Notes under the pieces: generated by a model
Told to the model about the DNA's origin: nothing
Seen by the model: only the letters and a program-made list of their open reading frames with translations
Database searches by the model: none
Origin: a virus
DNA: 64,000 bases
Strand: one strand, 5' to 3'
Virus record (IMG/VR): IMGVR_UViG_3300030116_004255
Span: 1-64,000 of that record
Shown here: positions 4,569 to 55,939 of the stretch, piece after piece
Position numbering within the stretch: position 1 is the first letter of the stretch
Layout of the letters: every line of letters begins with the position of its first letter
Position numbers and translations under genes: made by a program

Positions 4569-4742
4569 TTAGTCGTCACCAGCCCAGTTAGGATTACCTC
4601 TATATTCGTCATATATAGTTCTTTCATAGAGATCTTCCATAGATAAGTATATCTTTTTAGCAGTAATGTAGCCCTTTGTGATCAACCACTTATATGGCGC
4701 AGTAAATATCTTGTTTTCCCACTCTAAAAACTTATCAAACAC
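4569..4742 (-). CDS. Small protein of unknown function
   Basis: 57 aa if started at the GTG at 4742, preferred because AAGGT lies 8 nt upstream and the overlap with the PAPS-reductase-like gene is then only 8 nt. Starts at 4763 or 4802 are possible. Aromatic-rich sequence (FLEWENKIFTAPYKWLITKG) with an acidic C-terminus (GNPNWAGDD). No family recognised. Confidence 0.55.
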   Translation of the reverse strand: MFDKFLEWENKIFTAPYKWLITKGYITAKKIYLSMEDLYERTIYDEYRGNPNWAGDD

Positions 4743-5619
4743 CACACATACCTTCGCACTCATCATCAAATAAAGATCCCTGATAATCTTTTGGTTCTGC
4801 AAATGTAGCCTCTCTTAGAGGTATTTTAGATCTATATAAGTATTGCTCTGAACCATCGTCATACTTTTTAAAGTTGGTTAAGGCAGCGGACTCGGAATTA
4901 GGGTTTCTTAACCACTCGTCAAACTCAACAGCATAAGCAAACTCTTCTGGGTAATGTTCTTTTAATCGTTTCCACTCTACATCATTGTGGTATGGACAAA
5001 TAATACAAGCAGATCTTGGTGGTTTCGGATAACCCTCTTTCTGTGTCCAGTCTATTATGTCTTGTCTTGTAATTTCCTCTTGTATATATGGATAGCAGTT
5101 AACCTGCCATTTTGTCATAGGCTCTTTTACTCTTTGTATTTCGTCAAAGGAAATACCCATAACCATTTCTACATATTTATTTCTTAAATTCTTAACACCT
5201 AAAATTTCTCTAACTTTTTCTTGTATTGGCCTGATCTTGTATTCAGCAGTACAAGTCCTTCTACCAAAACCCATTTTTCCGTCTGATTTTTTTATATAAA
5301 CAGGAATTAGTGCGTATCTACCTTCCTTAGCTTTGTAGTCGTTAATTATATGTCCTGTATTCATAGAGTTTCTTACAACTTCAAACTCAACACGGCCTTT
5401 CATTATCTTTTTTAAATATTTAAGCCACTCGTAAACTTCTTTAGGCTCATTACCAGTATCAGCAAACATTGCAATATCGACTGGTTCTATTTCTTCTCTA
5501 AGTAATTTAAAAACTAAAGCAGAGCTTTGTACTCCAGCACCTAAAGATAAAACTCTTAGATCTCGATCTCTTTCTAGTGTTTTTTCGTCACCAACTTTTA
5601 ATTCCTGCATATAAGCCAT
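4735..5619 (-). CDS. PAPS reductase-like PP-loop ATPase/sulfotransferase
   Basis: 294 aa. The PP-loop nucleotide-binding motif is SLGAGVQSS at residues 25-33, followed by MFADTGNEP, typical of the adenosine-phosphosulfate reductase/DndC-like fold. A Cys-containing segment RRTCTAEYKI and a late CIICPYH motif (near residue 210) give three cysteines that could hold a metal or Fe-S cluster. Homologues are common in phages, where their role is unsettled: sulfur assimilation or thiolation of nucleic acid. The gene sits 1 nt from the ferredoxin gene, a plausible electron donor. Classic assimilatory PAPS reductases carry a C-terminal ECGLH; I do not see it, so a nucleic-acid or other substrate is as likely. 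Confidence 0.8.
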   Translation of the reverse strand: MAYMQELKVGDEKTLERDRDLRVLSLGAGVQSSALVFKLLREEIEPVDIAMFADTGNEPKEVYEWLKYLKKIMKGRVEFEVVRNSMNTGHIINDYKAKEGRYALIPVYIKKSDGKMGFGRRTCTAEYKIRPIQEKVREILGVKNLRNKYVEMVMGISFDEIQRVKEPMTKWQVNCYPYIQEEITRQDIIDWTQKEGYPKPPRSACIICPYHNDVEWKRLKEHYPEEFAYAVEFDEWLRNPNSESAALTNFKKYDDGSEQYLYRSKIPLREATFAEPKDYQGSLFDDECEGMCGV

Positions 5620-5620
5620 A

Positions 5621-5869
5621 TCAGTTCCCCTCTATAAATATACACTCTCCTGGACACTCCTCCGCAGACTCAATAACCAAACTTTCTTTACCTTTAGGAA
5701 CAACAGCTTGACCTTCTGCCCCCTGTGGATTACCGAGATCTTCTGCAAATATTTTGTCACCCTCTTTAACATAAGCTAGTCCATCATTTTGCATTACAAA
5801 AACTTCTGGACATATCTCTGCACATAAACCATCTCCTGTACATAAATCTTGATCAATCCAAACTTTCAT
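5621..5869 (-). CDS. Ferredoxin (3Fe-4S type)
   Basis: 82 aa. Cysteines at 10, 16 and 72 with prolines after C20 and C72 (CTGDGLCAEICP, ECPGECIF) follow the single-cluster pattern in which the second ligand Cys is replaced by Asp13, typical of 3Fe-4S ferredoxins of Actinobacteria that feed P450s and other oxygenases. C20 and C76 are extra. It overlaps the cupin-like gene upstream by 17 nt and abuts the PAPS-reductase-like gene, so it probably donates electrons to a product of this operon. A phage ferredoxin of actinobacterial type supports the host call. Confidence 0.85.
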   Translation of the reverse strand: MKVWIDQDLCTGDGLCAEICPEVFVMQNDGLAYVKEGDKIFAEDLGNPQGAEGQAVVPKGKESLVIESAEECPGECIFIEGN

Positions 5870-6605
5870 TTTTGTTTCTTCTTGTTATTTCCCTATATCC
5901 GCCTGTAAACTTAGATCTTAATCGAAAAGACTCATTATCTATGGCTTTGTGTTCAGTATCACTAAAAAGCTCCACCGCTAACTCAGTTTTTTCTCTTTTA
6001 AACGGTATGCAGTGTAAAAAAGGTGTTCCTCTTTTAATAATAGTGTCACCTTCAGCATGCCAGATACTAGGAAAATTTACTTGATGGAAACTGTCTGTTT
6101 CAACAATTCCAGGAATTACGGTAAAGTCGTCATTTTTATGTAATAAAGGTGGTATAAAAAGTGTTGACCAACCTGGTGGTGTCCAAAAAAACCAGGGACT
6201 AGTAAATTTTACAGCTCTTTTATAATCGCTATCTTCAAGAGGATAAGTAGAAAACTGCTCATTGTCGTGAAATTCTATATGACTGCTTGGTAAGTTTATT
6301 TGGTTTGTTTCAAAATGAAATGTATCACCGTGTCTTTGTACCAGCATGTCGTACCACATAGGTATAATGTATCCCTGCGTAAAGTAGTCAACAACTGCTG
6401 GACATTTTTTAATTGTATGACTGTTGTAATCTTTAAGCATTTCCCCCATTTTTGGAAATGGTTGTATATCTAGTCTAGCTAGATCAAGTGGTAAGTTTTG
6501 GAACCAATCAGGGATCATCTGTCCTGCTGGTACTGGTGGTGCAGTGTCAATTAAAGCTGGCGACATAGTTGCAAACTTTATTTCATTTTTTTTAATCCAT
6601 TTCAT
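5853..6605 (-). CDS. Cupin-like unknown protein, paralogue A
   Basis: 250 aa, one of three clear paralogues in the window (with 7915..8727 and 25421..26185). Shared landmarks in order: APP.PA...PDWF near the N-terminus, KKCPAVVDYFTQGYIIPMW, FHD, SPWFFWTPPGWS, IPGIVETDSFHQVNFPSIWH, RGTPFLHCIPFKRE. The regular beta-rich spacing with conserved His/Asp/Glu (ETD, H, WH) suggests a double-stranded beta-helix that may bind metal. The pattern resembles proteins grouped as DUF6065, but I cannot confirm that. It lies next to a 2OG-Fe(II) oxygenase and the ferredoxin. Function unknown. Confidence 0.75.
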   Translation of the reverse strand: MKWIKKNEIKFATMSPALIDTAPPVPAGQMIPDWFQNLPLDLARLDIQPFPKMGEMLKDYNSHTIKKCPAVVDYFTQGYIIPMWYDMLVQRHGDTFHFETNQINLPSSHIEFHDNEQFSTYPLEDSDYKRAVKFTSPWFFWTPPGWSTLFIPPLLHKNDDFTVIPGIVETDSFHQVNFPSIWHAEGDTIIKRGTPFLHCIPFKREKTELAVELFSDTEHKAIDNESFRLRSKFTGGYREITRRNKNESLD

Positions 6606-7110
6606 TTATACCTCTTTTAAAAAACCAATGATCAGGCTCCGCATAATGCAAAAACAACATACCAACTTGATTTGTTTCTGGATTAGGGAACTTTGATCTC
6701 CAATGCTCTTGATCTTCACCATAAAAAGCTAAGGCCTGATTGTCCCCTAAAGTATATTCTTTACCCTCTACATATAAAGGCCACGGTGTATTTTGATACA
6801 AACACAGATCTAAAGTATATGTACAAGCGTTATCGTCTTTATGTGGTAATAACTCTGCCTCTGTACCTTCGTAATGTGCAAACAATATGTAAGTCTTTTT
6901 TAAAGTATCAGAGTTAAATATTTTTTTAGCTTTTTGTTCTACGCTTGACAAATATGTGCGCATTTCTGGATAATCGTAATCAGATACAGAATATCGACCA
7001 AAATAACTATCATAACTAAATGTCTTATGTTTACTTTTAAGTAGATTTCTAACATAATTAAAACTACCAAAATCTAGTAGGCTATCAATAACCTTTACTT
7101 CTTGAACCAT
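6592..7110 (-). CDS. 2-oxoglutarate/Fe(II)-dependent oxygenase-like protein
   Basis: 172 aa with the facial triad H90-x-D92 (LLPHKDDN) and distal H136 (EDQEHWRSKF) expected for the 2OG-Fe(II) superfamily. The 2OG-binding basic residue is probably R138 or K140. The central TYTLDLCLYQNTPWPLYVEG matches the jelly-roll strands. It overlaps both neighbours (13 nt with paralogue A, 16 nt with the next gene), so the cluster is co-translated. The substrate is unknown; hydroxylation of protein or small molecule is possible. Confidence 0.7.
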   Translation of the reverse strand: MVQEVKVIDSLLDFGSFNYVRNLLKSKHKTFSYDSYFGRYSVSDYDYPEMRTYLSSVEQKAKKIFNSDTLKKTYILFAHYEGTEAELLPHKDDNACTYTLDLCLYQNTPWPLYVEGKEYTLGDNQALAFYGEDQEHWRSKFPNPETNQVGMLFLHYAEPDHWFFKRGINEMD

Positions 7111-41002: not shown

Positions 41003-42244
41003 TTAAGCACTTGTGATCTTGTGGAAAGCCTCTTGTCTGTAAACAGGGAATCCAACGCGCATTGTAGCTCTGATCACCATGATGTTCTTTGTAAAGTTTT
41101 CACCGTGGGAATCGCTAACTGCGACATCAATACCTTGCCTCATTACGACATGAGCTGCTTCACCGCCACCGAACTTACCAACTAGGATAGTTCCTTCAGA
41201 GATTGCAGTTGTTGGAACAACTTTTAATCCCCAAAGTTGGTTAGCTACTGCACCAGCGTATCCGCCTGCGGATGTGAACACTGGAGCTTTTGCTGCATAA
41301 CCAGCAGATGATGTGCCAGCAAAATCTTCGTCTAATTGAAGAACGATTTGTGACCAATCATTTGGGTGGATTACGATAGCATCTGGCTCTGTGAAAGCAT
41401 TTACTCTAATATCTGTAATTGCTCCATAGATTGCGCCAATTCTACCAAGTCCGCCTGCATAAGATCCATAAGCAGTAGATCCAACATTGGATTTTCCTGC
41501 GTCTAATAGACCTTCTAGGTTAGGTGATGTACCATCACCAGCAATAAGCTGACCGTCTAGTCTTAATCTCATCATGGTTTGTAGTCTAGAGTTCAAATAT
41601 GATTCTAAACCGCTAACATCTTGCATCAACTCATCTGTGACTGGAATGTTAACACCAAGTTTTGAGATTGTGGCTGTTCTCTCGGTGAATGCTAATGCTG
41701 CTTCTCCAACTGCTGCTGCTTCTGCGGCTTCAGCTGCGTTATTTGTGAAAGTAGTTTCTTCCAAATATACGAAAGCATTTTGATCTGTTTGAATTTGATC
41801 AAACAAGTTAATTACTGCATTAGGATCACGAAGAGCTGTTTCTAAAATACCAGGTTGTCTTAATGACTCTGGTGGGTATCCTGTTGTAGTTAAGTTTGTT
41901 TTTAACTCAAAAGGAACTGTGGATTGAATATTCTTCGCACCATTTTCGACATAGCTTTTGTAAGCTGCTGATTTCATAACCTCAGCACCGAAAGATCCAA
42001 CTTTTGGCTCTTCTGATGGGTTAGGAACAGATGCTACTGCATTATCAGAAAGATCTAATTTAGATTTAGCTTCAGCTACTTTTAAATCATCTCTTAAAGA
42101 TGCAAGTTCTTCATTTCTGTCAATGATTGCTTGCTTTTGCTCAGGGGTAGCACCACCTTCTTGACCTTTAACTTCGTCAAAAAGATTTTTTAATTCACCA
42201 GACTTTTGCGCTATATCATCACGAGTTTTTACAACTTCGCTCAT
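41003..42244 (-). CDS. HK97-type major capsid protein
   Basis: 413 aa. N-terminal helical delta-domain (RDDIAQKSGELKNLFDEVKG to ~residue 70) is usually removed by the prohead protease. Then the HK97 core: SLRQPGILETALRDPNAV, TATISKLGVNIPVTDELMQD, MMRLRLDGQLIAGDGTSPNL, DAIVIHPNDWSQIVLQLDED, and the C-terminal strand NFTKNIMVIRATMRVGFPVY. Start supported by GAGGAG. Followed by a strong terminator. Confidence 0.93.
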   Translation of the reverse strand: MSEVVKTRDDIAQKSGELKNLFDEVKGQEGGATPEQKQAIIDRNEELASLRDDLKVAEAKSKLDLSDNAVASVPNPSEEPKVGSFGAEVMKSAAYKSYVENGAKNIQSTVPFELKTNLTTTGYPPESLRQPGILETALRDPNAVINLFDQIQTDQNAFVYLEETTFTNNAAEAAEAAAVGEAALAFTERTATISKLGVNIPVTDELMQDVSGLESYLNSRLQTMMRLRLDGQLIAGDGTSPNLEGLLDAGKSNVGSTAYGSYAGGLGRIGAIYGAITDIRVNAFTEPDAIVIHPNDWSQIVLQLDEDFAGTSSAGYAAKAPVFTSAGGYAGAVANQLWGLKVVPTTAISEGTILVGKFGGGEAAHVVMRQGIDVAVSDSHGENFTKNIMVIRATMRVGFPVYRQEAFHKITSA

Positions 42245-42249
42245 AATAT

Positions 42250-43740
42250 TTACTCCTCAATAATCTCGTTATCTTGTACTTCTACATCGACTAATATTGA
42301 GTCTGTTAAGATTTCTTGTGATTCAAGCCATAGCTTGTCCAACTCGTCATCTAGGACTTCTTCTGTTGGTAATTCAGCTTCGTCAATAGGATCTTCCTCT
42401 GTTCTTTCGTCCCCTGTGTCTACTTCTGGTTCAGGATCTGCCACAACGGTTTCTACTTCAGCTTGCGCCTCAACAGTTTCCTCTGCTTTAGGTTCTTCCT
42501 CAGTTGTATCTACTGGTTCTGTTTGAACTTCGGTTTCCTCGACTTCTACTTCATTTACAACTTCTGCTGTTTCTGACAAATCGCCCTCACTTCCAAATTC
42601 ATCTACGAATTTATCTATTTCCGCAAAAGCGTCTGAAACGCTTTCTTGGACTGCTCTGAGAGCTTCTGTCGCTGAAACTCCCAACTTCCTACCATTCTTT
42701 TGCCTGAGTTCCCCAATGGATTGAACTCTGGCCACTAGGCTATTCAATGCAGCAAGCACATCTTTTACCTCATCAGAAAATCGCTTACCTTGCACGCTGG
42801 CACGATCTTCTAAAACCTCTTCGCCTTTTACTACTGACATTTTTTTTGCTATTTCATTTAACAGATCTAGCGAGTCTTGATCTGTTGGTACTTCTTTGAG
42901 TATGTCTTTCATATTCAAAGCTATGTCATTTAAAACTTCCATAGCTTTTTTGGTTTTACCCATTACTTTGTCATAGTCTTCGTGTGTAGCACACGGCATA
43001 TAAAAAATTTGTCCATCTGCGTCATGAGTATGTGATCCACTGCAACCTAATTGTTTAGCACGATCTTCAGCTTCTTCTGCTGACATATACATATCGCCAG
43101 TAGGTTTTGCTTTTTCTTCTTTCATACCCTCTTTAGCACATTTACCTGTCTTGTCGTAATCACACTCACCATATCCTTTTTCTTCCTCTTCAGGATCTTC
43201 TTTTTGGATACTGTCGTGTGATAAAACACCTTTTTGATCTGTATCATCTTTTTGACTTTTTATAGCCATAGTAAATGTTTCTTGATTAGCACCGACTAAT
43301 ACTGGGCTTACTTCATAAACGCTTAGATCTTTTAAGTATCTAACATCTTGTTCTTCGTCATTTGCACTTTTAGCAAACTTACCATATTCACTGTCATTTA
43401 CTCTAAAACCAAATGACCATTGTTGTAGATTACCCATATTCTTGACGAGCTTGTAGGCCTCTGCACCAGACTCGGTGTCCATAAAAAATTCACCGTCAAA
43501 AATTGCTTTCTCTTCGTCTTTTACAATTTTACCTTTACCGATTGGTTTATCCCATTGGTGCGCCCAGACCATTGGTACTGTTTCTGATTCTTTATCAAAG
43601 CCTGATTTGATAGCTTGTGGTAATACAACATCGCCATCTGTATCAATGTCGTTGAACAGTGAGAATACTGCTGCAACCTTTCCTTTTTCCTCGTCACCTT
43701 CTTTAAATTCTACTTGTATTTTTTTATACTCGTCTGACAT
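42250..43740 (-). CDS. Prohead protease (HK97 family) with long C-terminal extension
   Basis: 496 aa starting at MSDEYKKIQV (ATG 43740, GGAG upstream). The first ~190 residues are the S78 protease: AVFSLFNDIDTDGDVVLPQA, VPMVWAHQWDKPIGKG (catalytic His), LQQWSFGFRV (catalytic Ser), VYEVSPVLVGANQ. A mid-section (residues 220-290) has a Cys/His-containing domain (GECDYDKTGKCAKEG, GCSGSHTHDADGQIFYMPCA). The last ~150 residues are acidic (EVEVEETEVQTEPVDTTEEE), scaffold-like, so protease and scaffold may be fused. Confidence 0.88.
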   Translation of the reverse strand: MSDEYKKIQVEFKEGDEEKGKVAAVFSLFNDIDTDGDVVLPQAIKSGFDKESETVPMVWAHQWDKPIGKGKIVKDEEKAIFDGEFFMDTESGAEAYKLVKNMGNLQQWSFGFRVNDSEYGKFAKSANDEEQDVRYLKDLSVYEVSPVLVGANQETFTMAIKSQKDDTDQKGVLSHDSIQKEDPEEEEKGYGECDYDKTGKCAKEGMKEEKAKPTGDMYMSAEEAEDRAKQLGCSGSHTHDADGQIFYMPCATHEDYDKVMGKTKKAMEVLNDIALNMKDILKEVPTDQDSLDLLNEIAKKMSVVKGEEVLEDRASVQGKRFSDEVKDVLAALNSLVARVQSIGELRQKNGRKLGVSATEALRAVQESVSDAFAEIDKFVDEFGSEGDLSETAEVVNEVEVEETEVQTEPVDTTEEEPKAEETVEAQAEVETVVADPEPEVDTGDERTEEDPIDEAELPTEEVLDDELDKLWLESQEILTDSILVDVEVQDNEIIEE

Positions 43741-43863
43741 AGCATTTAACTCCAATTCAAAAATATATTTTCTATCGCTATTATGCAATATTAACTAAAA
43801 ATTTTTTACTTTTGTGTATTTACGATAGCCAACAGTAAATACTCAAATGTTGCATACTAGTGG

Positions 43864-43869
43864 TATAAT
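43864..43869 (+). promoter_or_regulatory. Extended -10 promoter for the moron genes
   Basis: TGGTATAAT (TG-n-TATAAT) ends 5 nt before ATG 43875, so the mRNA is probably leaderless. No clear -35, as is usual for extended -10. Confidence 0.65.
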
Positions 43870-43874
43870 TGCCT

Positions 43875-44114
43875 ATGGACGATATATTAGTGATTGCGAC
43901 ACTTCATATCTCCTCTGGAAGTTTCCAGATGACTGTAAAGTCTGACAAGACTGCGACTGCGGAAATTTTCGGTGAATTAATCACATTAAAAATGATTAAT
44001 AATAAAATAGAAATATCAGACAAGTTCAGCGCTAGTCAATTTAAAGGCGGTGCTGAAGAAAGAGATGAATTAATCAAATGGCTGAAACAAACAATGAAAG
44101 AAGCGCTAGCATAG
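43875..44114 (+). CDS. Moron gene 1, unknown 79-aa protein
   Basis: Plus-strand gene between portal and protease, both minus strand. The ATG at 43875 is preferred over a TTG at 43869 because TATAAT ends 5 nt before it. Sequence: DILVIATLHISSGSFQMTVK, ISDKFSASQFKGGAEERDEL and a helical end IKWLKQTMKEALA. No family recognised. A convergent autonomous unit inside the late operon is typical of a moron. Confidence 0.68.
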   Translation: MDDILVIATLHISSGSFQMTVKSDKTATAEIFGELITLKMINNKIEISDKFSASQFKGGAEERDELIKWLKQTMKEALA

Positions 44115-44308
44115 ATAGTTCAAATGACAACTTTGCTCTTTTTATGGACGCTATATCAGTATCAGATCGATCCAACAGAAATAAAATTATAACTGATTGG
44201 TTGGCTGTTTTATCTGCATCTGATCAAGATAGATTAGTTAACAAACTAAAAAATCGTGGTATTGAATATCAACCAAAAGAAAATTCTAGATTTTTTGAAA
44301 ATTCTTAA
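44078..44308 (+). CDS. Moron gene 2, unknown 76-aa protein
   Basis: Overlaps the previous gene by 37 nt in another frame, which may mean the true start is further in (for example MDAISVSDRS). It contains NRNKIITDWLAVLSASDQDR and ends facing the portal stop with a 4-nt overlap. Helical, acidic. Function unknown. Confidence 0.58.
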   Translation: MAETNNERSASIDSSNDNFALFMDAISVSDRSNRNKIITDWLAVLSASDQDRLVNKLKNRGIEYQPKENSRFFENS

Positions 44309-46932
44309 TTTCTGAAGTCTTTAATTTTTCTTAATTTAGATATTGGTTGAGTGACTGACCTGTCAGTTTTCTTATGTGATCCATCTTCCATAATAGCCCA
44401 CACAACCATAGTGGCTTCGTTATCAGTGTTATTTACTGAACTAACTATTCCGTGAACAGTTGATGGCGGATCAGGATCTTTATTTATTGACCAAGAAACA
44501 GCATCTCCCACTTTTACTGAATCTGCTTTTTCAGATCTAGCTGAGTTCATTTCTACTTCTGATAAGGCCTCGGCCTCTTCAGTAGATACATTTATTTCCT
44601 CAATAACATCAAAAGCATTTTTCTTAGAACTTAGTGGATGACTGCTAGGTAGTAAATCAGTATCGTATGGTTTTCTTTTAAACTTACCTGTTCTTAAAGC
44701 TCTTAATAGGCCATTCACTCTGGCCATTGCCCACTGGGCTGGACCTGCAACATTACCTCTTACTGATCCAGGGTTATTTTGATACGCTGCTAAACCTCTG
44801 TTATAACAAGCAGTCAACATTCTTAAAGTTGCTCTATGTCTAGGATTTTTAGCGTTATGATCGTCTACTTTTTTCTGCAATGCTTTTCTTGTTGCTGCAC
44901 TAAGAGCTTTAGCTTCTATTTCATCTAGTAAAGCCTCTTGTATCTTTCTTCTTTCACGAATAACTTTTTTGTATTCGTTAACTGTTTTTTTCATAGCACT
45001 AACACCAGTTTTTGTAGTACCGCCCCATTTCATTACAGCAATGTATCCATTTAGTTTTGTATTACCAGAGTGTCTGGCCATAAAACTTTCACGCCTTTTA
45101 ACCCAGTTCAATACTGATTCTGATCTATCGCCAGATCTGTATTTTGTCCACCTGTTGAAAGCATCATTACCAGTAAAAGAGGTTGGTGGATTACCACCTG
45201 TACCAGCTCTACGCCAGATTTCAGGCCAGTTCTCTTTAAGATCTTTTACATAGTTATAATCTGGAAATTGTTTAAATTTGCTATTACTAATCGATATAGT
45301 TTGGTTATCTCCAGAACTTGGAAAGTTTGTTTTCTTTGGTGCTTTACCTTCTTTTTTCATACGACCTAAAGCGTTTCTTGCTTGATCTTCATTTTCATAA
45401 CATTTAATTACTTCGTTAGTATCGTGATCTAATATACACCAAGCACCATTAGGCATTTCAGCAACATACTTTTCCTCATTCAATTCAGTAGGTTTTGGTT
45501 TTAAAATTTGTGATCTAATTGACTCAACATCAACAGAAATAGTTGTCATAACTTTTTCTTTAAGTTCTTGCATATCATTTCTTAGTTTCGCTACTTCTTC
45601 CTCTGTTGTGATTTCTGGTTGTTCTGTTTCCTCAACAGGTTTAGCGTCTATTGATCTTTCAACCATATTCATAGGTCTTAAATATATATCGTGTGTTTCA
45701 TCTGAATTAAGGCCTGCTTGTTTTCTGGCCTCTCCGATTGTGATCCAACCACCCTGAACAGCAGTATTCATTCTTTTATAAATATCATCTTTGTCTTGTG
45801 ATAAAGCCCTTACATCTTCTAAATTGTAATTTACATACATACCCTCAGCGTCATAATCTTTTCTAAGAAGTTGATGTGTTAACTCTGACGCAACTGATTT
45901 CCATAAAGGTACTAATTTTTGTTCTGTAAAAAATTCTCTAAGTTCTCTGGTGTTGTTATAAGTAGCTGCGTCCAAACCAGCACCTAAACCTGCAAGAATA
46001 GCTGGGACACCAAGAACTGCTGATACTCTTTCTTCTGGTAATTTTCTTAACTCTGTTAAATTCATTTGATCAGGTGAGAAAGATACGACTTCTACATTCA
46101 TAGATCCAGATAAGACCATAGGTGCGCCACGATTTTTTCCGCCAAACTTTTGTTTGTACATAGCGGATATTGCTTCGGCCTCTTCTTTTGAGGGTCCGCC
46201 CATTGAGTCATCTTTTGGTGAGAGGATGACACCTGGTACAGCCATGTTATGTAAGAGTGCTGCTGCATACTGTCCTGCGGCCTCGTCACCTAAAATTTCT
46301 CTTAATACAGATTTTAGAGGAGCAAAGCCTCGCCTATGGTTATTTGGATCAATTCCGTTTCGGATATGCACTATATCATTGGTTGGAACGACTATACTAT
46401 TACCCCCAAGTCCACCGTGAGGTGCATACTTGAAGTGAGTTATTAAAGTATCTTCATTACCTTTTGGTTCAACTAAGTTAGGCATCAAAGGAACTAGCTG
46501 TACCACATTTCCATCTGAGTTTCGGTTTTTATATAAAAAAGCATCTCCATAAGCAGATAAAGCAACAACTATGTAATGTGCTAATAGGTTTCCAGAAGTA
46601 AAAGGATTTGGCCTATCAAGTAGTTTTGATAAAGGGTGTTGTTTGACTACTTCTTGATCTCCATCTTCTTGATCAGTTAAAACTCTTATTCTTGGTTCTG
46701 CAAAAGAAGTTGCTAAAACATTTAAACAAGCGACTACTGCTGAGTTATTAGATCCATCACCAATATCATCTAATTGTGAAACAGGCCAATAACCTGAGTC
46801 TGTATTATATCCGTAAACCGCTCTGTCTAAACTTGTTTGTTGATTGTATCTACTGTATTTTTGTTCTTGTCTTTTCGTAGGTGCGTTTAAATAATCTACT
46901 ACTCTTCTGTACCTCGATTTATTCTCAGCCAT
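44305..46932 (-). CDS. Portal protein fused to a long C-terminal extension
   Basis: 875 aa, about twice an ordinary HK97 portal. Residues 1-430 are portal: SAVVACLNVLATSFAEPRIR, HPLSKLLDRPNPFTSGNLLA, LVPLMPNLVEPKGNE, RGFAPLKSVLREILGDEAAG, AVPGVILSPKDDSM, LPEERVSAVLGVPAILAGLG. After a coiled-coil stretch come a WCILDHDTNEVIKCYENEDQ segment, a W-rich block (WPEIWRRAGTGGNPPTSFTG, WVKRRESFMARHSGNTKLNG, MKWGGTTKTG), and a C-terminal Tudor-like module (VKVGDAVSWSINKDPDPPST...GIVSSV). Begins right after the terminase stop (TAAATG). Confidence 0.9.
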   Translation of the reverse strand: MAENKSRYRRVVDYLNAPTKRQEQKYSRYNQQTSLDRAVYGYNTDSGYWPVSQLDDIGDGSNNSAVVACLNVLATSFAEPRIRVLTDQEDGDQEVVKQHPLSKLLDRPNPFTSGNLLAHYIVVALSAYGDAFLYKNRNSDGNVVQLVPLMPNLVEPKGNEDTLITHFKYAPHGGLGGNSIVVPTNDIVHIRNGIDPNNHRRGFAPLKSVLREILGDEAAGQYAAALLHNMAVPGVILSPKDDSMGGPSKEEAEAISAMYKQKFGGKNRGAPMVLSGSMNVEVVSFSPDQMNLTELRKLPEERVSAVLGVPAILAGLGAGLDAATYNNTRELREFFTEQKLVPLWKSVASELTHQLLRKDYDAEGMYVNYNLEDVRALSQDKDDIYKRMNTAVQGGWITIGEARKQAGLNSDETHDIYLRPMNMVERSIDAKPVEETEQPEITTEEEVAKLRNDMQELKEKVMTTISVDVESIRSQILKPKPTELNEEKYVAEMPNGAWCILDHDTNEVIKCYENEDQARNALGRMKKEGKAPKKTNFPSSGDNQTISISNSKFKQFPDYNYVKDLKENWPEIWRRAGTGGNPPTSFTGNDAFNRWTKYRSGDRSESVLNWVKRRESFMARHSGNTKLNGYIAVMKWGGTTKTGVSAMKKTVNEYKKVIRERRKIQEALLDEIEAKALSAATRKALQKKVDDHNAKNPRHRATLRMLTACYNRGLAAYQNNPGSVRGNVAGPAQWAMARVNGLLRALRTGKFKRKPYDTDLLPSSHPLSSKKNAFDVIEEINVSTEEAEALSEVEMNSARSEKADSVKVGDAVSWSINKDPDPPSTVHGIVSSVNNTDNEATMVVWAIMEDGSHKKTDRSVTQPISKLRKIKDFRN

Positions 46933-48174
46933 TTAGTAAGCACTCCATTCTCGTCTTATTTGTGCGCTTATAATTCCATATCCTATTGCGTCTACAATGT
47001 CATCATGATGACCTACTGGAAATGTCATTAATTCTCTTTCCACTTCCACTAACCAAGTAGCGCCCTGTCTGAAATAAACATCTCCAGCTTCCATACGAGC
47101 AGCTAGAGGTAAAGCTCTTGAAACTTTATCTTTATCTGCACGCAACTCTTTAACGGCTAGTCCATCTCGTTTCGCAAACTGAATAAGCGAAAGCTGGAAA
47201 CCTGCTCGTTCCATACCAACCCATTGTAAATCATATTCTGCCATTTTTTGTCTTATTCGAGGTATTATGTCAGGAGCTTCCATACGCTTTCGATCAACAT
47301 CTAAGACTAAAATTTTACCTTTTGGTGTTATTGCAAAGCTAGCTATTACTGTATAATCAGCACCTTTTTCGACAGAAGTAGCTAAGTCAACTGTGCAAAA
47401 TCTAGTACATTCGTATAGATCTATGTTTTCACCACTAGCAAAAAACATACCATTTTTTTCTTTAAAGTACCTTAACCACTCTGGTTGTAGTATTCCCTGT
47501 CCTGCTTCTACAAATTCAGCTAAATATTCTTGTGCAAAAACTATTGATCCTACTTCGTCTTTGGCCTTTTCAACCTCTTCTCTTTCAATAAAAGGATTAT
47601 CCCAAGTAGCAAATTGGAATCTTTCCCAATCAGGTTTATCTTGTGCAAACTCCCATAATTCATAAAACCAATTATTCATACCCATAGGTGTACTAATAAA
47701 TAAAGCTGATCCTCTTCTTTCAGTTAAAGTAGGCCTTAACACCTGGTGCCATACATCTGGTTTTACGAAAGCAGCCTCGTCCATTACTAAGAAATCCAAA
47801 CCCTCACCTCGAAGTCTATGTGGTGTATCTGCTGATCTTACTGCTATTGATCCACCGCCAGGAAACTTAACTTCCATATTAACTAACGATATTTCTGGCT
47901 CTATTGCTTCTGGAAAAGATCTTGCTGCCTCTAAAATATCACGCCAACCAACACGAGCAATAGTATAAGTTGGTGCAACCCACCAAGCTCTTTTACCAGC
48001 TAAAGCAATTTGTAAGCATAATTGGACACCAAGTCTTGATTTTCCAAATCGTCTACCAGCACATAAAATTTTCCAACGAGCATCGCTTTCTGTGACTTTT
48101 AGTTGAGCCTCGTGTAGTGGTGGTAGTTTAGCAATGGCTTTTCTACCATCTTTCATCTTTACTTGTGTTTCCAT
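46933..48174 (-). CDS. Terminase large subunit
   Basis: 413 aa from the ATG at 48174, 7 nt after TATACT. Walker A GRRFGKS, VAPTYTIARVGW, Walker B LDFLVMDEAA and coupling motif FISTPMG form the ATPase that drives packaging; the RNase-H-like nuclease has TVDLATSVEKGADYT and GHHDDIVDAIGY. This order is complete and normal in length. It cuts concatemers and pumps DNA through the portal, whose gene follows without spacing. Confidence 0.95.
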   Translation of the reverse strand: METQVKMKDGRKAIAKLPPLHEAQLKVTESDARWKILCAGRRFGKSRLGVQLCLQIALAGKRAWWVAPTYTIARVGWRDILEAARSFPEAIEPEISLVNMEVKFPGGGSIAVRSADTPHRLRGEGLDFLVMDEAAFVKPDVWHQVLRPTLTERRGSALFISTPMGMNNWFYELWEFAQDKPDWERFQFATWDNPFIEREEVEKAKDEVGSIVFAQEYLAEFVEAGQGILQPEWLRYFKEKNGMFFASGENIDLYECTRFCTVDLATSVEKGADYTVIASFAITPKGKILVLDVDRKRMEAPDIIPRIRQKMAEYDLQWVGMERAGFQLSLIQFAKRDGLAVKELRADKDKVSRALPLAARMEAGDVYFRQGATWLVEVERELMTFPVGHHDDIVDAIGYGIISAQIRREWSAY

Positions 48175-48181
48175 CAAGTAA

Positions 48182-50856: not shown

Positions 50857-51003
50857 ATGGATTATTTAATAGGATTTATATTTGGATATTTTGTTAAAGA
50901 AACTTTTGCATTTCTGAAAAGATTAAGCGAATGGGACTGGCAAAATCGTTTGGTTTATGACCAAGATATATTTATGCCTCTTACTGAGGATGATTTACCC
51001 TAA
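50857..51003 (+). CDS. Small membrane protein under SOS control
   Basis: 48 aa: MDYLIGFIFGYFVKETFAFL is one membrane helix; the rest (KRLSEWDWQNRLVYDQDIFM) is soluble and ends acidic. The ATG at 50857 is chosen for its fit to the promoter. SOS-induced one-helix proteins such as YneA or SidA stop division; that is an analogy only. It is convergent with the C5 methyltransferase (9-nt overlap). Confidence 0.66.
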   Translation: MDYLIGFIFGYFVKETFAFLKRLSEWDWQNRLVYDQDIFMPLTEDDLP

Positions 51004-52446
51004 AACCTCTTGATCAAACACAAGTGTGTCTTGTATCAAAGATCTAATAACTAATCGACCTGTTAATTCTGCAAAATGTGGTACAACTGCATTTCCGAGA
51101 GCTTTAAGTCTATCAATATCGTTTTCTTGTCTTTCTGCAACTCTTAGTATGTTATTTTCCCATTGACTATCTACACCCCAAGAATTTGTCATTCCAAGTT
51201 CAGCCAACCATCTGGGTAGCCCATAAGTCTGTTCACCCAAGCTGGGTTCAGTCGCATACCAATCAATTCTGGATTCCGTTCCCCAACATCCATCTCCAGC
51301 GTAGAGCCGTGTGATCCACTCGCCACTGAGGGAGCTTTCTTGTTTACTGGCTTGCTGGCCTGACTGGCTCTGGGTGTCGAAAATGTCTCCTTTTCCACCC
51401 ACTCTATCACTTCTATTGTCGTCAGTTCTTTCTCGAACTTTATTTCGTTCAAGTGTGGTTTGATCTTGCTCCAGTCCTCCAGACTCGGATAACTGAATCC
51501 GCTCTGATCGTAGCGATACCAATGATCCACTGTCGTTTTCTTTATCTTGGTCAGCTTTGCTAACTTGGTCGCCCCTATCTGACTTCTTATGTAGTCCACC
51601 CAGTCCTTCTGTGGTGGTAGAAGTGGTCGATTGATCATCTCGTGATCCTGATAATAAACCATTAGGCTCGGATCTTTCTCTATCATATCCATCCAAACTT
51701 GATCGCTCAATGTTCTCTGTATCCTGTGGCCTGACGATCTCCTGGTTTTCCCCTGCATTAGTTTCGTCGCGTGTTTCAAGCTGTCGTCTTTCTGATCCAT
51801 TGTCGTTGGTGTTAACCAAATCTTTGGGTTCTCTCGTAAGTTCCCAGTACCTTTTCTTTTGCTCTTCCTCTCTGGATCTCCACGATACAACGCTCTCTCC
51901 AAAGCGTCCCCTGATCTCGGTTCTAAGTGATCCAAAGTGTTCGGTGTCTCCCACGATTCCAACTCCCACCCATCTTTGTCTTTTGTGTCTTGCTCCAACG
52001 AATTTTGCTGATACAAGTTGCCATTCAAATCGATAGTACCGCATTTTGGCCACACCTTTGAGGACACGGTTAATGGCTTCTCCGTCACTTGCTCTGAGGA
52101 TGTTTGGTACATTTTCCAAGAGGAAGATTGGTGGTCGTAGCTCATCAATAAATCTTTCGACTTCATCCCATAACCATCTTTCATCTTTTACTCCTTTCTG
52201 GTTTCCTGCAACACTTACAGGCTGACATGGAAATCCAGCACTTAATATATCTATTTTAGGTAGATATTTTGTATTTATCTCTTCTACGCTTTTATTTAAA
52301 ACTAAACTATTAGGAAAATTTTGTTGTAAAACCTTTGTACAAAATTCGTCATTGTCTATCTGCCAAGCTACATCTGAAACCAGGCCTGATCTAATAAGGC
52401 CTAACTCTATACCGCCGATACCAGCAAACATACTTCCTAACTTCAT
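50995..52446 (-). CDS. DNA cytosine-5 methyltransferase
   Basis: 483 aa. Motif I SMFAGIGGIELG (5-16), motif IV GFPCQPVSVAG (71-81, catalytic Cys74), motif VI FLLENVPNIL, motif VIII GARHKRQRWVGVGI, and motif X-like LKALGNAVVPHFAELTG near the C-terminus. The middle (~190-390) is hydrophilic with many Glu, Arg, Ser and no clear target-recognition domain. It is read in parallel with another gene over the same DNA. Part of the methyltransferase island. Confidence 0.9.
   Translation of the reverse strand: MKLGSMFAGIGGIELGLIRSGLVSDVAWQIDNDEFCTKVLQQNFPNSLVLNKSVEEINTKYLPKIDILSAGFPCQPVSVAGNQKGVKDERWLWDEVERFIDELRPPIFLLENVPNILRASDGEAINRVLKGVAKMRYYRFEWQLVSAKFVGARHKRQRWVGVGIVGDTEHFGSLRTEIRGRFGESVVSWRSREEEQKKRYWELTREPKDLVNTNDNGSERRQLETRDETNAGENQEIVRPQDTENIERSSLDGYDRERSEPNGLLSGSRDDQSTTSTTTEGLGGLHKKSDRGDQVSKADQDKENDSGSLVSLRSERIQLSESGGLEQDQTTLERNKVRERTDDNRSDRVGGKGDIFDTQSQSGQQASKQESSLSGEWITRLYAGDGCWGTESRIDWYATEPSLGEQTYGLPRWLAELGMTNSWGVDSQWENNILRVAERQENDIDRLKALGNAVVPHFAELTGRLVIRSLIQDTLVFDQEVLG
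51189..52184 (-). CDS. Nested second-frame gene inside the C5 methyltransferase
   Basis: 331 codons open in a different frame of the same strand, wholly inside 50995..52446. The protein does not look like chance: SSSWKMYQTSSEQ, KVWPKCGTIDLNGNLYQ, WLTPTTMDQ and LNPAWVNRLMGYPDGWLNLE are the hallmark blocks of phage proteins associated with or fused to C5 methyltransferases. It also has a helix-turn-helix-like part (GATKLAKLTKIKKTTVDHWY). The ATG at 52184 is nominal; translation signal not clear. Probably real overprinted gene. Confidence 0.7.
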   Translation of the reverse strand: MKDGYGMKSKDLLMSYDHQSSSWKMYQTSSEQVTEKPLTVSSKVWPKCGTIDLNGNLYQQNSLEQDTKDKDGWELESWETPNTLDHLEPRSGDALERALYRGDPERKSKRKGTGNLRENPKIWLTPTTMDQKDDSLKHATKLMQGKTRRSSGHRIQRTLSDQVWMDMIEKDPSLMVYYQDHEMINRPLLPPQKDWVDYIRSQIGATKLAKLTKIKKTTVDHWYRYDQSGFSYPSLEDWSKIKPHLNEIKFEKELTTIEVIEWVEKETFSTPRASQASKPVNKKAPSVASGSHGSTLEMDVGERNPELIGMRLNPAWVNRLMGYPDGWLNLE

Positions 52447-53189
52447 TTAATTCTTTCTTTTGCTATCCTGCAATATTTTTCCATTATTTCTATTCCTATA
52501 AAATTTCTATTAGTGTTTAGACAAGCAACACCAGTAGATCCTGATCCCATTGTAAAATCTAGCACTGTTTGATCTTCAAGCGTATAAGTTTCTATTAAAT
52601 ATTCTAATAAAGCAACTGGTTTTTGTGTTGGGTGATATGACTTCTGATTTTTCTTTTGGTTATCTCTTGGAAAGTAAAGCATGTTGTGTTTTGTTCTGTG
52701 TGTGTAGGTCACATACTTTCTACGGCCATTTTCTAAATTCTTTTTAGCAGTGGAAAAACTCTCGCCACCAGAAATTGTGCGGACTCTAGTTATAGGCTTT
52801 GCTAGTTTTTCCCCCTGCCAATCGTAATCAGGTTGTTCTTTATAAAATATAGATATGTTTTCGTTTTTTCTCATAGGTTGTTTTTTACTAAAGGCCTGAC
52901 CAGTTCCTTTATCTTTTTCCCAGATCCAGTCATATCTATATTCCTCTATGTTAGATAATCTTAAAAAACTACTAAAAGGTTCTAGGCCGAATAAAGCTAT
53001 TGCTGTTCTGTCTTTTCTAATTCTTTTTATCTGACTCCACATTTCCTCTACTGGTACTTGTTTGTCCCAGTCGTATTGAGTAGTTCCGTAAGGAAGATCA
53101 GTTAGTATAAAATCAATAGAGTTGTCGTCAATTAATTTCATAATCTCTAAACAGTTTCCGTTATACAGCTTCAATTCTTTCCTTTGCAA
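52443..53189 (-). CDS. DNA N6-adenine/N4-cytosine methyltransferase (DLPY)
   Basis: 248 aa. TDLPYGTTQYDWDK gives the motif IV as DLPY, AIALFGLEPFSSFLRLS follows and the SAM-binding motif I is near the C-terminus (VLDFTMGSGSTGVACLNTNR, FIGIE). This late-motif-I order is the beta class (N6 or N4). HPTQKPVALLEYLI precedes motif I. Overlaps the C5 gene by 4 nt and the next gene by 29 nt. Confidence 0.88.
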   Translation of the reverse strand: MQRKELKLYNGNCLEIMKLIDDNSIDFILTDLPYGTTQYDWDKQVPVEEMWSQIKRIRKDRTAIALFGLEPFSSFLRLSNIEEYRYDWIWEKDKGTGQAFSKKQPMRKNENISIFYKEQPDYDWQGEKLAKPITRVRTISGGESFSTAKKNLENGRRKYVTYTHRTKHNMLYFPRDNQKKNQKSYHPTQKPVALLEYLIETYTLEDQTVLDFTMGSGSTGVACLNTNRNFIGIEIMEKYCRIAKERIK

Positions 53190-53823
53190 TGTTGTAATAA
53201 TCCTCTACCAGCTCTATTCCTATAAATGCTCTATTTAGTTTTTTACAAACAACTCCAGTAGTCCCTACACCTAAGAAAGGATCAAGTATTAACTGATTTT
53301 CACTTGTAAAGTTTTCTATAAAGTAATGTGCAAGTTGTTCAGGCATAACAGCATTAAAGTCGCCATAGCTTTTTGTTCCTTTTGGTATATCAACAAAGTT
53401 TGTTATGAAATGTGTGTTTGCTTTTACTTTTTTCTTAGAGAAACATAAAATATATTCGACTGAGTTAGTCACATAGTATTGTGCTGAACTAGGTGTAGCA
53501 TTTTTCTTATACCAAATAAAATTTTGTTCTAATAGATCTGCATAATGGCCTATTAATTTAAATACTTGTTTTTTGTTTCTAGCATTTGCTTGTATGTTCC
53601 AGAAAACATAGTGGTCTGTAATTCTTAATAGCTCGTCTATGATTTGTGTACACCAATCAAAATAGTCAGGCCTTTTGTCTTTAAATTGATCGTATTTAGA
53701 TTTTGCTTTAGAGTCTAATTCTTTGTTAAGGCCTATATTGTAAGGTGGACTTGTAAATGTATGATCTACTGTGTTTTCACCGAGTTCTTTTATAATTTCT
53801 AAACAGTCACCGTTATATATCAT
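53161..53823 (-). CDS. DNA N4/N6 methyltransferase (TSPPYN)
   Basis: 220 aa from MIYNGDCLEII (ATG 53823, AGG upstream). Motif IV is TSPPYNIGLN, motif I is LILDPFLGVGTTGVVCKKLN with FIGIEL. TSPPY is the usual signature of N4-cytosine and some N6-adenine beta enzymes. Adjacent to MetK with an 11-nt overlap. Confidence 0.88.
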   Translation of the reverse strand: MIYNGDCLEIIKELGENTVDHTFTSPPYNIGLNKELDSKAKSKYDQFKDKRPDYFDWCTQIIDELLRITDHYVFWNIQANARNKKQVFKLIGHYADLLEQNFIWYKKNATPSSAQYYVTNSVEYILCFSKKKVKANTHFITNFVDIPKGTKSYGDFNAVMPEQLAHYFIENFTSENQLILDPFLGVGTTGVVCKKLNRAFIGIELVEDYYNIAKERIEAV

Positions 53824-54880
53824 CAACCTGTTCCCAAGTTCTGGTGCGATCACCAAAATGAGAAAATTGACTATCTTTGTAATATTGCACCTGTTTTAAA
53901 TTCAATCTTTCTATTATTGCTTCAGGCCTAAAGTCAAAGCATTGAATAAATTTCTCTATACTTGCACGCCTCTTTTTTTCTGTTCCATTAAAAGCTACAC
54001 TTAGTTCTATTGGGTGTTCCATACCTATTCCATAGGACAACCTAACTAAGGCATCTTCGCACATACCATGTTCTACTAAATTGACAGCTAAGTGTCTAGC
54101 AGCATAAGCGCCAGATCTGTCAACTTTACTTGGATCTTTACCAGAGAAAGCACCACCGCCAACAGGTATTGTAGGTCCGTAGCTATCTACTACTATTTTC
54201 CTACCAGTCACTCCTGTGTCTGCTGCTGGTCCACCTTTTGTAAAAGATCCAGATGGATTTACATGAAGTGTAAAATCTGGACCTATTATATTTTCAACTA
54301 AGCTAACTAACTTACCTTCGTATTCATTTTTTTCTAATTCTGTTTGTACTGAGATAACTACTGTATATCCGCCATTTTCAGTCACTTGTACTTTTGAGTC
54401 CAAGCCATAAAAATAATCATACTTTTGTAGCTCCCATAGATCCATTTGTATTTCTCTAGCTAAATCAAATTCGTGAGGTAAAAGCGTTGATGTTTTATTT
54501 GTTGCAAATCCAATCATAATACCCTGATCTCCTGCACCCTTTTTAGCTACAACTGCATCTCTAATTTCTATACTTTGTGGTGATATATTTTCACTAAGAG
54601 TATATTTATTTAGATCAAATTCTTTATGACTGTTTCTTATGTTTTTTTCTAAAACATCTTTGACTAGATAAGGTATTGTTTGTTTTATTTCGTGATAGGT
54701 AGTTTCTGTCATTTCGCCACCCAACACAACTAATCCTCCACTTTCATTACCAGTAATTAATGTTTCTATTGCTACTTTACAATCTGGATTTTCTACTAAA
54801 GCTCTGTCTAATATTCTGTCAGAAATTTGATCTGCTATTTTATCTGGGTGTCCAGGGGACACAAATTCTGCTGTTTTCAT
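53813..54880 (-). CDS. metK: S-adenosylmethionine synthetase
   Basis: 355 aa, slightly shorter than cellular MetK (~380-400). All signature parts are there: FVSPGHPDKIADQISDRILD at the N-terminus (ATP/metal), GAGDQGIMIGFAT, and GGGAFSGKDPSKVDRSGAYA (methionine/triphosphate site), IGMEHPIELSV. It converts ATP and methionine to SAM, pyrophosphate and phosphate. It lies in the middle of five methyltransferase genes, so it likely supplies SAM for their reactions. Confidence 0.93.
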   Translation of the reverse strand: MKTAEFVSPGHPDKIADQISDRILDRALVENPDCKVAIETLITGNESGGLVVLGGEMTETTYHEIKQTIPYLVKDVLEKNIRNSHKEFDLNKYTLSENISPQSIEIRDAVVAKKGAGDQGIMIGFATNKTSTLLPHEFDLAREIQMDLWELQKYDYFYGLDSKVQVTENGGYTVVISVQTELEKNEYEGKLVSLVENIIGPDFTLHVNPSGSFTKGGPAADTGVTGRKIVVDSYGPTIPVGGGAFSGKDPSKVDRSGAYAARHLAVNLVEHGMCEDALVRLSYGIGMEHPIELSVAFNGTEKKRRASIEKFIQCFDFRPEAIIERLNLKQVQYYKDSQFSHFGDRTRTWEQVDDI

Positions 54881-55413
54881 TTACTCAACCTTTCCATAAT
54901 GATTTGTTTTGGTAAAAAGTTCCAACAGTAGTAGGAACTAGAAAAAGTAGGGCTACCCATACTCTTACCATCTTTAAAATATTGTATACGCTTATCAAAC
55001 ATAAGTAGTTCTAAATCACGATTTTCAAATAAATACTTAGGTGCGGAGTCATTTAGCCAAGTATTAGACATAAGCAGTGCAAAAGGTTTATTAAAAAATA
55101 AAGCTCTTTCAAATATTTGTCTTTTGTTGGTAAATGGTGGATTACTAACAATAATGTCCCAATGTTCGTCAGGTTCATAGGTATAAAAGTCTTGTCCGTC
55201 AAAAATGTGTGAATTTATAACTTTATTGCGTTCCTGGATCTTTTTTACAAAAAAACTGTGTTCTTGATCAAAAGGACACCAAACTACTGCATTTTCAGGA
55301 ATATATTTTAAAATTGGCTGAACTGCGTATTCTGGGGTATAACACTCGTCATTTTTACCTTTTGAGTATAAAACTTTATTACTTTCTAACCCCCAGCGAT
55401 CAGTTGACTTCAT
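54877..55413 (-). CDS. Adenine-methyltransferase-like protein (SNPPF)
   Basis: 178 aa. IVSNPPFTNKRQIFERALFF is the catalytic (N/S)PP(Y/F) motif; VVWCPFDQEHSFFVKKIQER and NSHIFDGQDFYTYEPDEHWD match a widespread phage family. SAM motif I is not evident at the N-terminus, so it may be a divergent methyltransferase. Overlaps MetK start by 4 nt. Confidence 0.75.
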   Translation of the reverse strand: MKSTDRWGLESNKVLYSKGKNDECYTPEYAVQPILKYIPENAVVWCPFDQEHSFFVKKIQERNKVINSHIFDGQDFYTYEPDEHWDIIVSNPPFTNKRQIFERALFFNKPFALLMSNTWLNDSAPKYLFENRDLELLMFDKRIQYFKDGKSMGSPTFSSSYYCWNFLPKQIIMERLSK

Positions 55414-55939
55414 TTCCCCAGCTATCCCATCCTTCGGCTGTTTCTCTTGCGAATAATTCTATTCTAGGAAGATCTCCACAAAGTTCAATGATATCGTTCC
55501 TAATTCTGTCAGGTTTCTTGCTGTGTCTTGATCGTGGTTCAATTACTAATTCTTTTACAGCTTTAGAAACTCTGCTTGGTTTTCCTTTTGTAGCTAATAA
55601 ACATAATTCTGGATTACCTCTTGTCCAATAACCTAAACCAGTAAAAAATCCCTCTGACTTAATATTTTTCTTTATCCAGTTAAAAGCTACTGTTTTATAA
55701 GTAAATCCCCAACTATCGATTACTTCAAAGGCCTGTGGTAATGAGTGATTAACTACCCAAAGAAATAAAACACAATTAGTATCTGCAATATCGTTTACTG
55801 GTAATGACTTTATCCAGTTAAGATCTTGTGTTTCGTAATGTTGATTAGGATTTCGTCCCTCGCCTTTTTTACTAAAGTTTTTAAAACTCCACGGTGGATC
55901 TGCATAAATTATGTTGTATTTATTATTTGGGAACTCCAT
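55400..55939 (-). CDS. MT-A70 family N6-adenine methyltransferase
   Basis: 179 aa. DPPW catalytic motif in YNIIYADPPWSFKNFSKKGE, then NQHYETQDLNWIKSL, LFLWVVNHSLPQAFEVIDSW, FNWIKKN, GYWTRGNPELCLLATKG and EPRSRHSKKPDRIRNDIIEL, the full MT-A70 order. These enzymes methylate adenine in DNA (or RNA). First gene of the methyltransferase operon, leaderless start. Confidence 0.92.
   Translation of the reverse strand: MEFPNNKYNIIYADPPWSFKNFSKKGEGRNPNQHYETQDLNWIKSLPVNDIADTNCVLFLWVVNHSLPQAFEVIDSWGFTYKTVAFNWIKKNIKSEGFFTGLGYWTRGNPELCLLATKGKPSRVSKAVKELVIEPRSRHSKKPDRIRNDIIELCGDLPRIELFARETAEGWDSWGNEVN

Follow-up and report, generated by a model that had tools for sequence, protein, structure and literature searches.

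Antisense and accessory genes in phage late operons

The tail assembly blocker moron tab (gene 31) of phage JBD26 encodes an 83 aa protein, has its own promoter and, within the late operon, separates the two terminase genes in antisense orientation; it is expressed from the prophage, with anti-Tab encoded on the late strand (PMC10884400). The acrF1-aca1 pair of phage JBD30 has its own promoter (PMC9410906), and its two genes, which encode proteins of 78 aa (AcrF1) and 79 aa (Aca1), overlap by 29 nt and are located immediately upstream of the gene for the head maturation protease. In noncontiguous operons, exemplified by menE-menC in S. aureus and ith/tha in phage 80alpha, a gene with its own promoter lies antisense within an operon, an arrangement that allows mutually exclusive expression (PMC7154746, PMC11087260). 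Finally, Bacteroidetes phages carry reverse-strand bS21 genes among their terminase, portal, protease and capsid genes, and these are expressed late (PMC9723584).

We describe here a pair of small genes, ORF1 and ORF2, located between the portal and prohead protease genes of a virus from the IMG/VR collection. The window, by which we mean the whole stretch of DNA that was analyzed, covers 64 kb of the 81,955-base virus record. A Pfam search places the late genes on the minus strand in the order terminase, portal, prohead protease, HK97-type capsid. The relevant genes are:

41003..42244, minus strand: major capsid protein (HK97 fold, Phage_capsid; Pfam PF05065, 3.9e-35)
42250..43740, minus strand: prohead protease (Peptidase_S78; Pfam PF04586, 5.9e-21), divergent from ORF1/ORF2
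43875..44114, plus strand: ORF1, 79 aa, leaderless start predicted
44078..44308, plus strand: ORF2, 76 aa, start within ORF1
44305..46932, minus strand: portal protein (Pfam PF04860, 2.2e-61)
46933..48177, minus strand: terminase large subunit, in the same late operon (Pfam PF03237 and PF17289)

The two small plus-strand genes reported between portal and protease by a first-pass annotation of this DNA are thus correctly placed, and both occur in all relatives whose sequence spans the junction. The label 'reverse-strand' given to them is apt relative to the late genes but not as an absolute strand, since they are encoded on the plus strand. The interval first given for them begins at the first base of TATAAT (43864) and ends at the final base of the ORF2 stop codon (44308). 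ORF1 and ORF2 overlap by 37 nt, and ORF2 is convergent with the portal gene, with a 4-nt overlap of the stops. A sequence check found no Shine-Dalgarno motif before either ORF, and a GGAG ribosome site is present upstream of the prohead protease gene. There is no terminator-like site at the end of ORF2, where the predicted fold is weakly above shuffled sequences (z -1.57).

Like tab, the pair is small, runs opposite to the late operon, has its own promoter and is situated between two packaging genes. It differs from the single-gene tab in consisting of two overlapping genes for unrelated proteins, in being fixed in its clade, and in that no integrase was found; there is no second gene on the late strand between portal and protease. 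With acrF1-aca1 it shares the arrangement of two overlapping small genes of similar size next to a protease gene. However, acrF1-aca1 lies on the late-gene strand and Aca1 is a helix-turn-helix repressor, and neither AcrF1 nor Aca1 has sequence similarity to ORF1 or ORF2. By analogy, then, the pair may be described as having the size and overlap of JBD30 acrF1-aca1 and the orientation of JBD26 tab. Its gene order resembles that of the noncontiguous operons, although those are supported by RNA, while the pair is known here from gene order and promoter. The bS21 genes are likewise small, opposite-strand and clade-conserved among head genes, but they encode a recognized ribosomal protein and are expressed late; ORF1 has no Pfam match at all and ORF2 none to ribosomal proteins.

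The flanking head genes have features of their own. At 875 aa the portal protein (44305-46932) is of unusual length; it contains a DUF5824-like region, and its portal fold is followed by a conserved C-terminal domain. The prohead protease (42250-43788) has a long C-terminal extension that includes a DUF3721 motif (residues 234-269 in the frame starting with TTG) together with an acidic tail; it looks as though a scaffold had been fused to the protease.

Conservation and coding status of the pair

Profiles built from ORF1 and ORF2 retrieved 37 and 36 IMG/VR contigs, respectively, and the genes are always antisense between portal and protease. As a lower bound, the pair is carried by at least 37 related marine contigs. 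Both ORFs occur on every contig that spans the whole junction, and the clade contigs that gave no match end short of it. Excluding two near-identical contigs, identity to the window ranges from 44 to 64% for ORF1 and from 32 to 63% for ORF2. Pairwise dN/dS falls mostly in the range 0.1-0.45; a single outlier of 0.81 comes from a comparison in which changes are few. Presence at the same junction in at least 37 contigs, combined with purifying selection, indicates that ORF1 and ORF2 are real genes. The frames are neither absent nor degraded in the relatives that cover this junction, the opposite of the outcome that the first-pass annotation had named as counting against its reading. A non-coding RNA was considered and ruled out: there is no Rfam match, and selection at the codon level favors proteins.

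The promoter region

Upstream of ORF1 the following elements can be recognized:

43816..43842, no strand assigned: operator-like dyad GTATTTAC-11nt-GTAAATAC, centre TAGCCAAC, an inverted repeat
43826..43833, plus strand: upstream repeat copy, TAGCCAAC in the window and TTGCCAAT in most relatives
43850..43857, plus strand: downstream repeat copy, TTGCATAC in the window and TTGCMNAT in relatives
43861..43869, plus strand: extended -10 promoter element TGGTATAAT, conserved in relatives

The ORF1 ATG is 5 nt downstream of the extended -10 TGGTATAAT. Among 20 distinct sequences from relatives the -10 has the form TGN-TATANT without exception, bearing out the extended -10 first proposed, and the spacing from the -10 to the start codon (ATG in 18, GTG in 2) is 5-6 nt in all 20. 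Ordinary sigma-70 spacing would put the transcript start at, or 1-2 bases from, the ORF1 start codon. On this spacing from TGGTATAAT, and on the sequence as it stands, we infer that the ORF1 mRNA is leaderless, as proposed earlier. The motif TGNTATAAT occurs a single time in the 64-kb window, against 6.1 expected, and not at all in the remaining ~20 kb of the record. We therefore rejected the idea that a TGNTATAAT-type promoter recurs through the phage, since it is unique in the record.

The dyad formed by GTATTTAC and GTAAATAC is a perfect 8-bp repeat between the divergent transcription units, and looks like an operator. A ATTGCCAAT core, the counterpart of the dyad centre, is retained in most relatives. 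Most lineages have two copies of the TTGCMNAT element, of which the first is sometimes degenerate and the second lies 12-14 nt upstream of the -10. Elsewhere among the late genes of the window the repeat element is absent; ATTGGCAAT occurs upstream of the protease gene in one sister lineage that lacks the insert (L184, L186, L188, L199). As a separate observation, TTGCCAA is found once in the window against 10.7 expected, and it is possible that the window avoids both this word and TGNTATAAT, each being rarer than expected.

Two new protein families

ORF1 and ORF2, judged by their sequences, represent two new protein families. AlphaFold predicts a five-stranded beta sheet with a C-terminal helix for ORF1 (pLDDT 83), and the family has the core TLH.GSG.F ... 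EIFG ... GGAEERD..W. ORF2, with the family core RNKIITDW...RLINKLK.RGI.Y.P.EN, is predicted at low confidence (pLDDT 69) to have three helices and no clear helix-turn-helix. Neither protein has a match above cut-off in Pfam, PHROGs, PADLOC or NCBIfam, the best sub-threshold family matches being to phrog_3037 (0.003), DUF576 (0.006) and an MCM winged helix (0.016). The first of these, a transcriptional-repressor family, is matched weakly but recurrently by ORF2 (E 0.003, in 10 of 20 members).

Structure-based searches were similarly unproductive. A PDB profile search gave nothing for ORF1 but OspA at E 0.5, and its match of ORF2 to the cytochrome P450 CYP125 (E 0.001) involves a single helix-rich stretch and was judged to be due to chance. 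Foldseek returned no match at E <= 0.001 for either ORF against the PDB, or for ORF1 against viral models. A cultured-phage collection yielded nothing similar to either ORF, even with E values of up to 1 allowed, and profiles of ORF1 and the capsid protein found no close homolog in the 84,980 bacterial and archaeal genomes of GTDB, so neither a host nor a prophage could be named. No relation in sequence or fold to any Acr, Aca or defence protein was found for either ORF.

A single insertion followed by vertical inheritance

In sister lineages, whose portal proteins are 52-58% identical, the gap between portal and protease genes is ~80-115 nt and has no such ORFs, and neither ORF is found elsewhere in 21 sister records, some of which are fragments. 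Antisense genes of this kind are missing from the sister junctions and from most outgroup junctions. On a 32-row portal tree the insert maps as a single change, with support of 100/100. These insert-free junctions and the single change uphold the original proposal that an inserted unit with its own promoter interrupts the portal-protease-capsid order. Because the junction is contiguous in distant relatives too (Sinorhizobium phage Aussie and contigs L064-L069), gain is favored over loss.

Distances among the ORF1 and ORF2 proteins rise and fall with the distances of their neighbors portal, protease and capsid, as a Mantel correlation shows (r 0.61-0.83, p 0.001). The single change on the tree, together with this correlation, points to one insertion followed by vertical inheritance and retention. 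Mean distances are 0.43 for ORF1 and 0.42 for ORF2 versus 0.19 for portal, 0.14 for capsid and 0.30 for protease, so that the pair has diverged at two to three times the rate of portal or capsid. Such fast divergence is as expected of host-facing proteins; the protease is also fast, to a lesser degree. By these sequence comparisons, the pair was placed antisense in an ancestor common to a single clade of uncultured marine phages, which has kept it since. One entry, presence in every covered junction and co-evolution together make it a fixed trait of the clade rather than patchy cargo. The term 'moron', under which the pair was first annotated, is thus apt insofar as the sequence suggests an inserted unit that is transcribed from its own promoter, and inapt insofar as it denotes patchy, dispensable cargo. 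The pair has the extra genes and the promoter of its own that are typical of morons, but a terminator of its own and patchiness or expression in a lysogen were not found.

Phage accessory genes are usually thought to come and go. Entry once at a defined site, followed by complete retention, contrasts with this usual turnover and suggests a function that every member of the clade needs and that is under selection for fast change.

One further case bears on the insertion site. Phage ctLpZ231 has an antisense gene, UOF76936, at its portal-protease junction (MW202444 21568-21849; 3569-3850 of locus L206). Like ORF2, UOF76936 has a 4-nt tail overlap with the portal gene at the same junction. Unlike the pair, it encodes a single 93-aa protein, has a Shine-Dalgarno motif and lacks such a promoter, and no homology to ORF1 or ORF2 was found. 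The presence of an unrelated antisense gene in this distant phage means that the junction seems to accept insertions more than once, and hence seems to be used convergently. The case of ctLpZ231 suggests that the portal-protease site could be a useful place to look for new early or anti-defence genes.

Possible functions of the pair

We tentatively favor, at somewhat less than an even chance, a reading in which the pair is an immediate-early, host-facing cassette for anti-defence or takeover that is read by host RNA polymerase and shut off by antisense late transcription. Host sigma-70 RNA polymerase would read the promoter as soon as the DNA has entered, before any phage factors exist, giving a leaderless mRNA. 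ORF1 would be made first and ORF2 by translational coupling, which the start of ORF2 inside ORF1 would suit. The target of ORF1 would then lie in the host; most likely it would block a defence or bring some cellular function under phage control. ORF2, as a small helical protein, would regulate or assist ORF1, possibly as an Aca-like autorepressor on the tandem TTGC elements. In terms of acr-aca hallmarks, the dyad and TTGC repeats could stand for the promoter repeats, and ORF2 is a predicted helical protein with a weak repressor match. Later, the terminase-portal mRNA would cross the whole cassette antisense and silence it in the manner of a noncontiguous operon; such a shut-off is to be expected given late genes on both flanks and no terminator-like site at the end of ORF2. 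The whole would amount to an early cassette of the acr-aca type set in reverse orientation within the late operon, a description of type that claims no membership of a known family. By analogy of architecture, an anti-defence role for the pair is plausible. Acr genes are usually patchy, which counts against the acr-aca-type reading given that the pair is fixed in its clade. Rather unlikely, in our estimation, is the extended form of this proposal, in which the locus founds a new class: a fixed leaderless antisense early cassette in a seemingly non-temperate phage, its inhibitor and autorepressor, from two new protein families, directed against a defence shared by almost all hosts of the clade and silenced by antisense late transcription. 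The architecture offers a testable design, that of an early leaderless cassette switched off by its surrounding operon.

The alternative that fares best, although we still regard it as unlikely, is a phage-internal regulator. ORF1 and ORF2 would time the late operon by repressing or delaying protease-capsid transcription from the divergent region that both units share, and the antisense transcript would damp early portal expression. A pair that the whole clade has, and that is inherited along with the head genes, would suit an integral regulator. Such a role also fits the presence of the dyad and of tandem TTGC elements in the divergent region, the ATTGGCAAT before the protease gene of an insert-free sister lineage, and the weak matches that make ORF2 look repressor-like. 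Against this, sister phages do without the pair, neither protein has a recognized DNA-binding domain, and the repeat element is not seen at further late genes in the window.

HK97 gp15 blocks superinfection and Tab blocks tail assembly, and the pair could similarly exclude or sabotage co-infecting phages. Tab resembles the pair very closely in size, strand and setting (83 aa, antisense, own promoter; PMC10884400), but both Tab and gp15 are prophage-expressed. Five clade records of 54-85 kb, possibly incomplete, contain no tyrosine integrase, resolvase or HTH_3 repressor, making expression in a lysogen unlikely and a role in the lytic phase likelier. Superinfection exclusion of the lysogen type therefore finds no support, and a lysogen-expressed moron is, from gene content, not our first choice. 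Since, in addition, the bacterial and archaeal genomes hold no close homolog and the late strand no anti-Tab-like partner, we consider phage-phage competition improbable.

We hold it quite improbable that the pair encodes a virion or assembly factor, such as a capsid decoration or a portal or protease chaperone, that is transcribed separately in the way of the reverse-strand bS21 genes. Its site among the head genes, its co-inheritance with them and the bS21 precedent (PMC9723584) would agree with this, but early expression is what the sigma-70-like promoter and the putative leaderless start would suggest, the sister clade assembles homologous heads while lacking the pair, and neither ORF matches a virion family. 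A toxin-antitoxin or plasmid-maintenance type pair, suggested by the overlapping small genes, the operator-like promoter and a ParB-like gene on the same record, is very improbable, as no such family is matched above cut-off (Pfam, NCBIfam, PADLOC), a partition or lysogeny system is not established, and toxin-antitoxin loci are as a rule mobile and patchy.

Other gene content

Many DNA methyltransferase-like genes are also found in one phage (eight matches; 50995-55939 of the window and 16277-19608 of L015), and several adjacent frames of this kind match one family, phrog_67. The ParB-like gene and a replication initiator are found alongside them. Near the left end of the window (4735-7110) are two possible auxiliary metabolic genes, one of them PAPS reductase-like and the other from a family with the annotation ferrochelatase.
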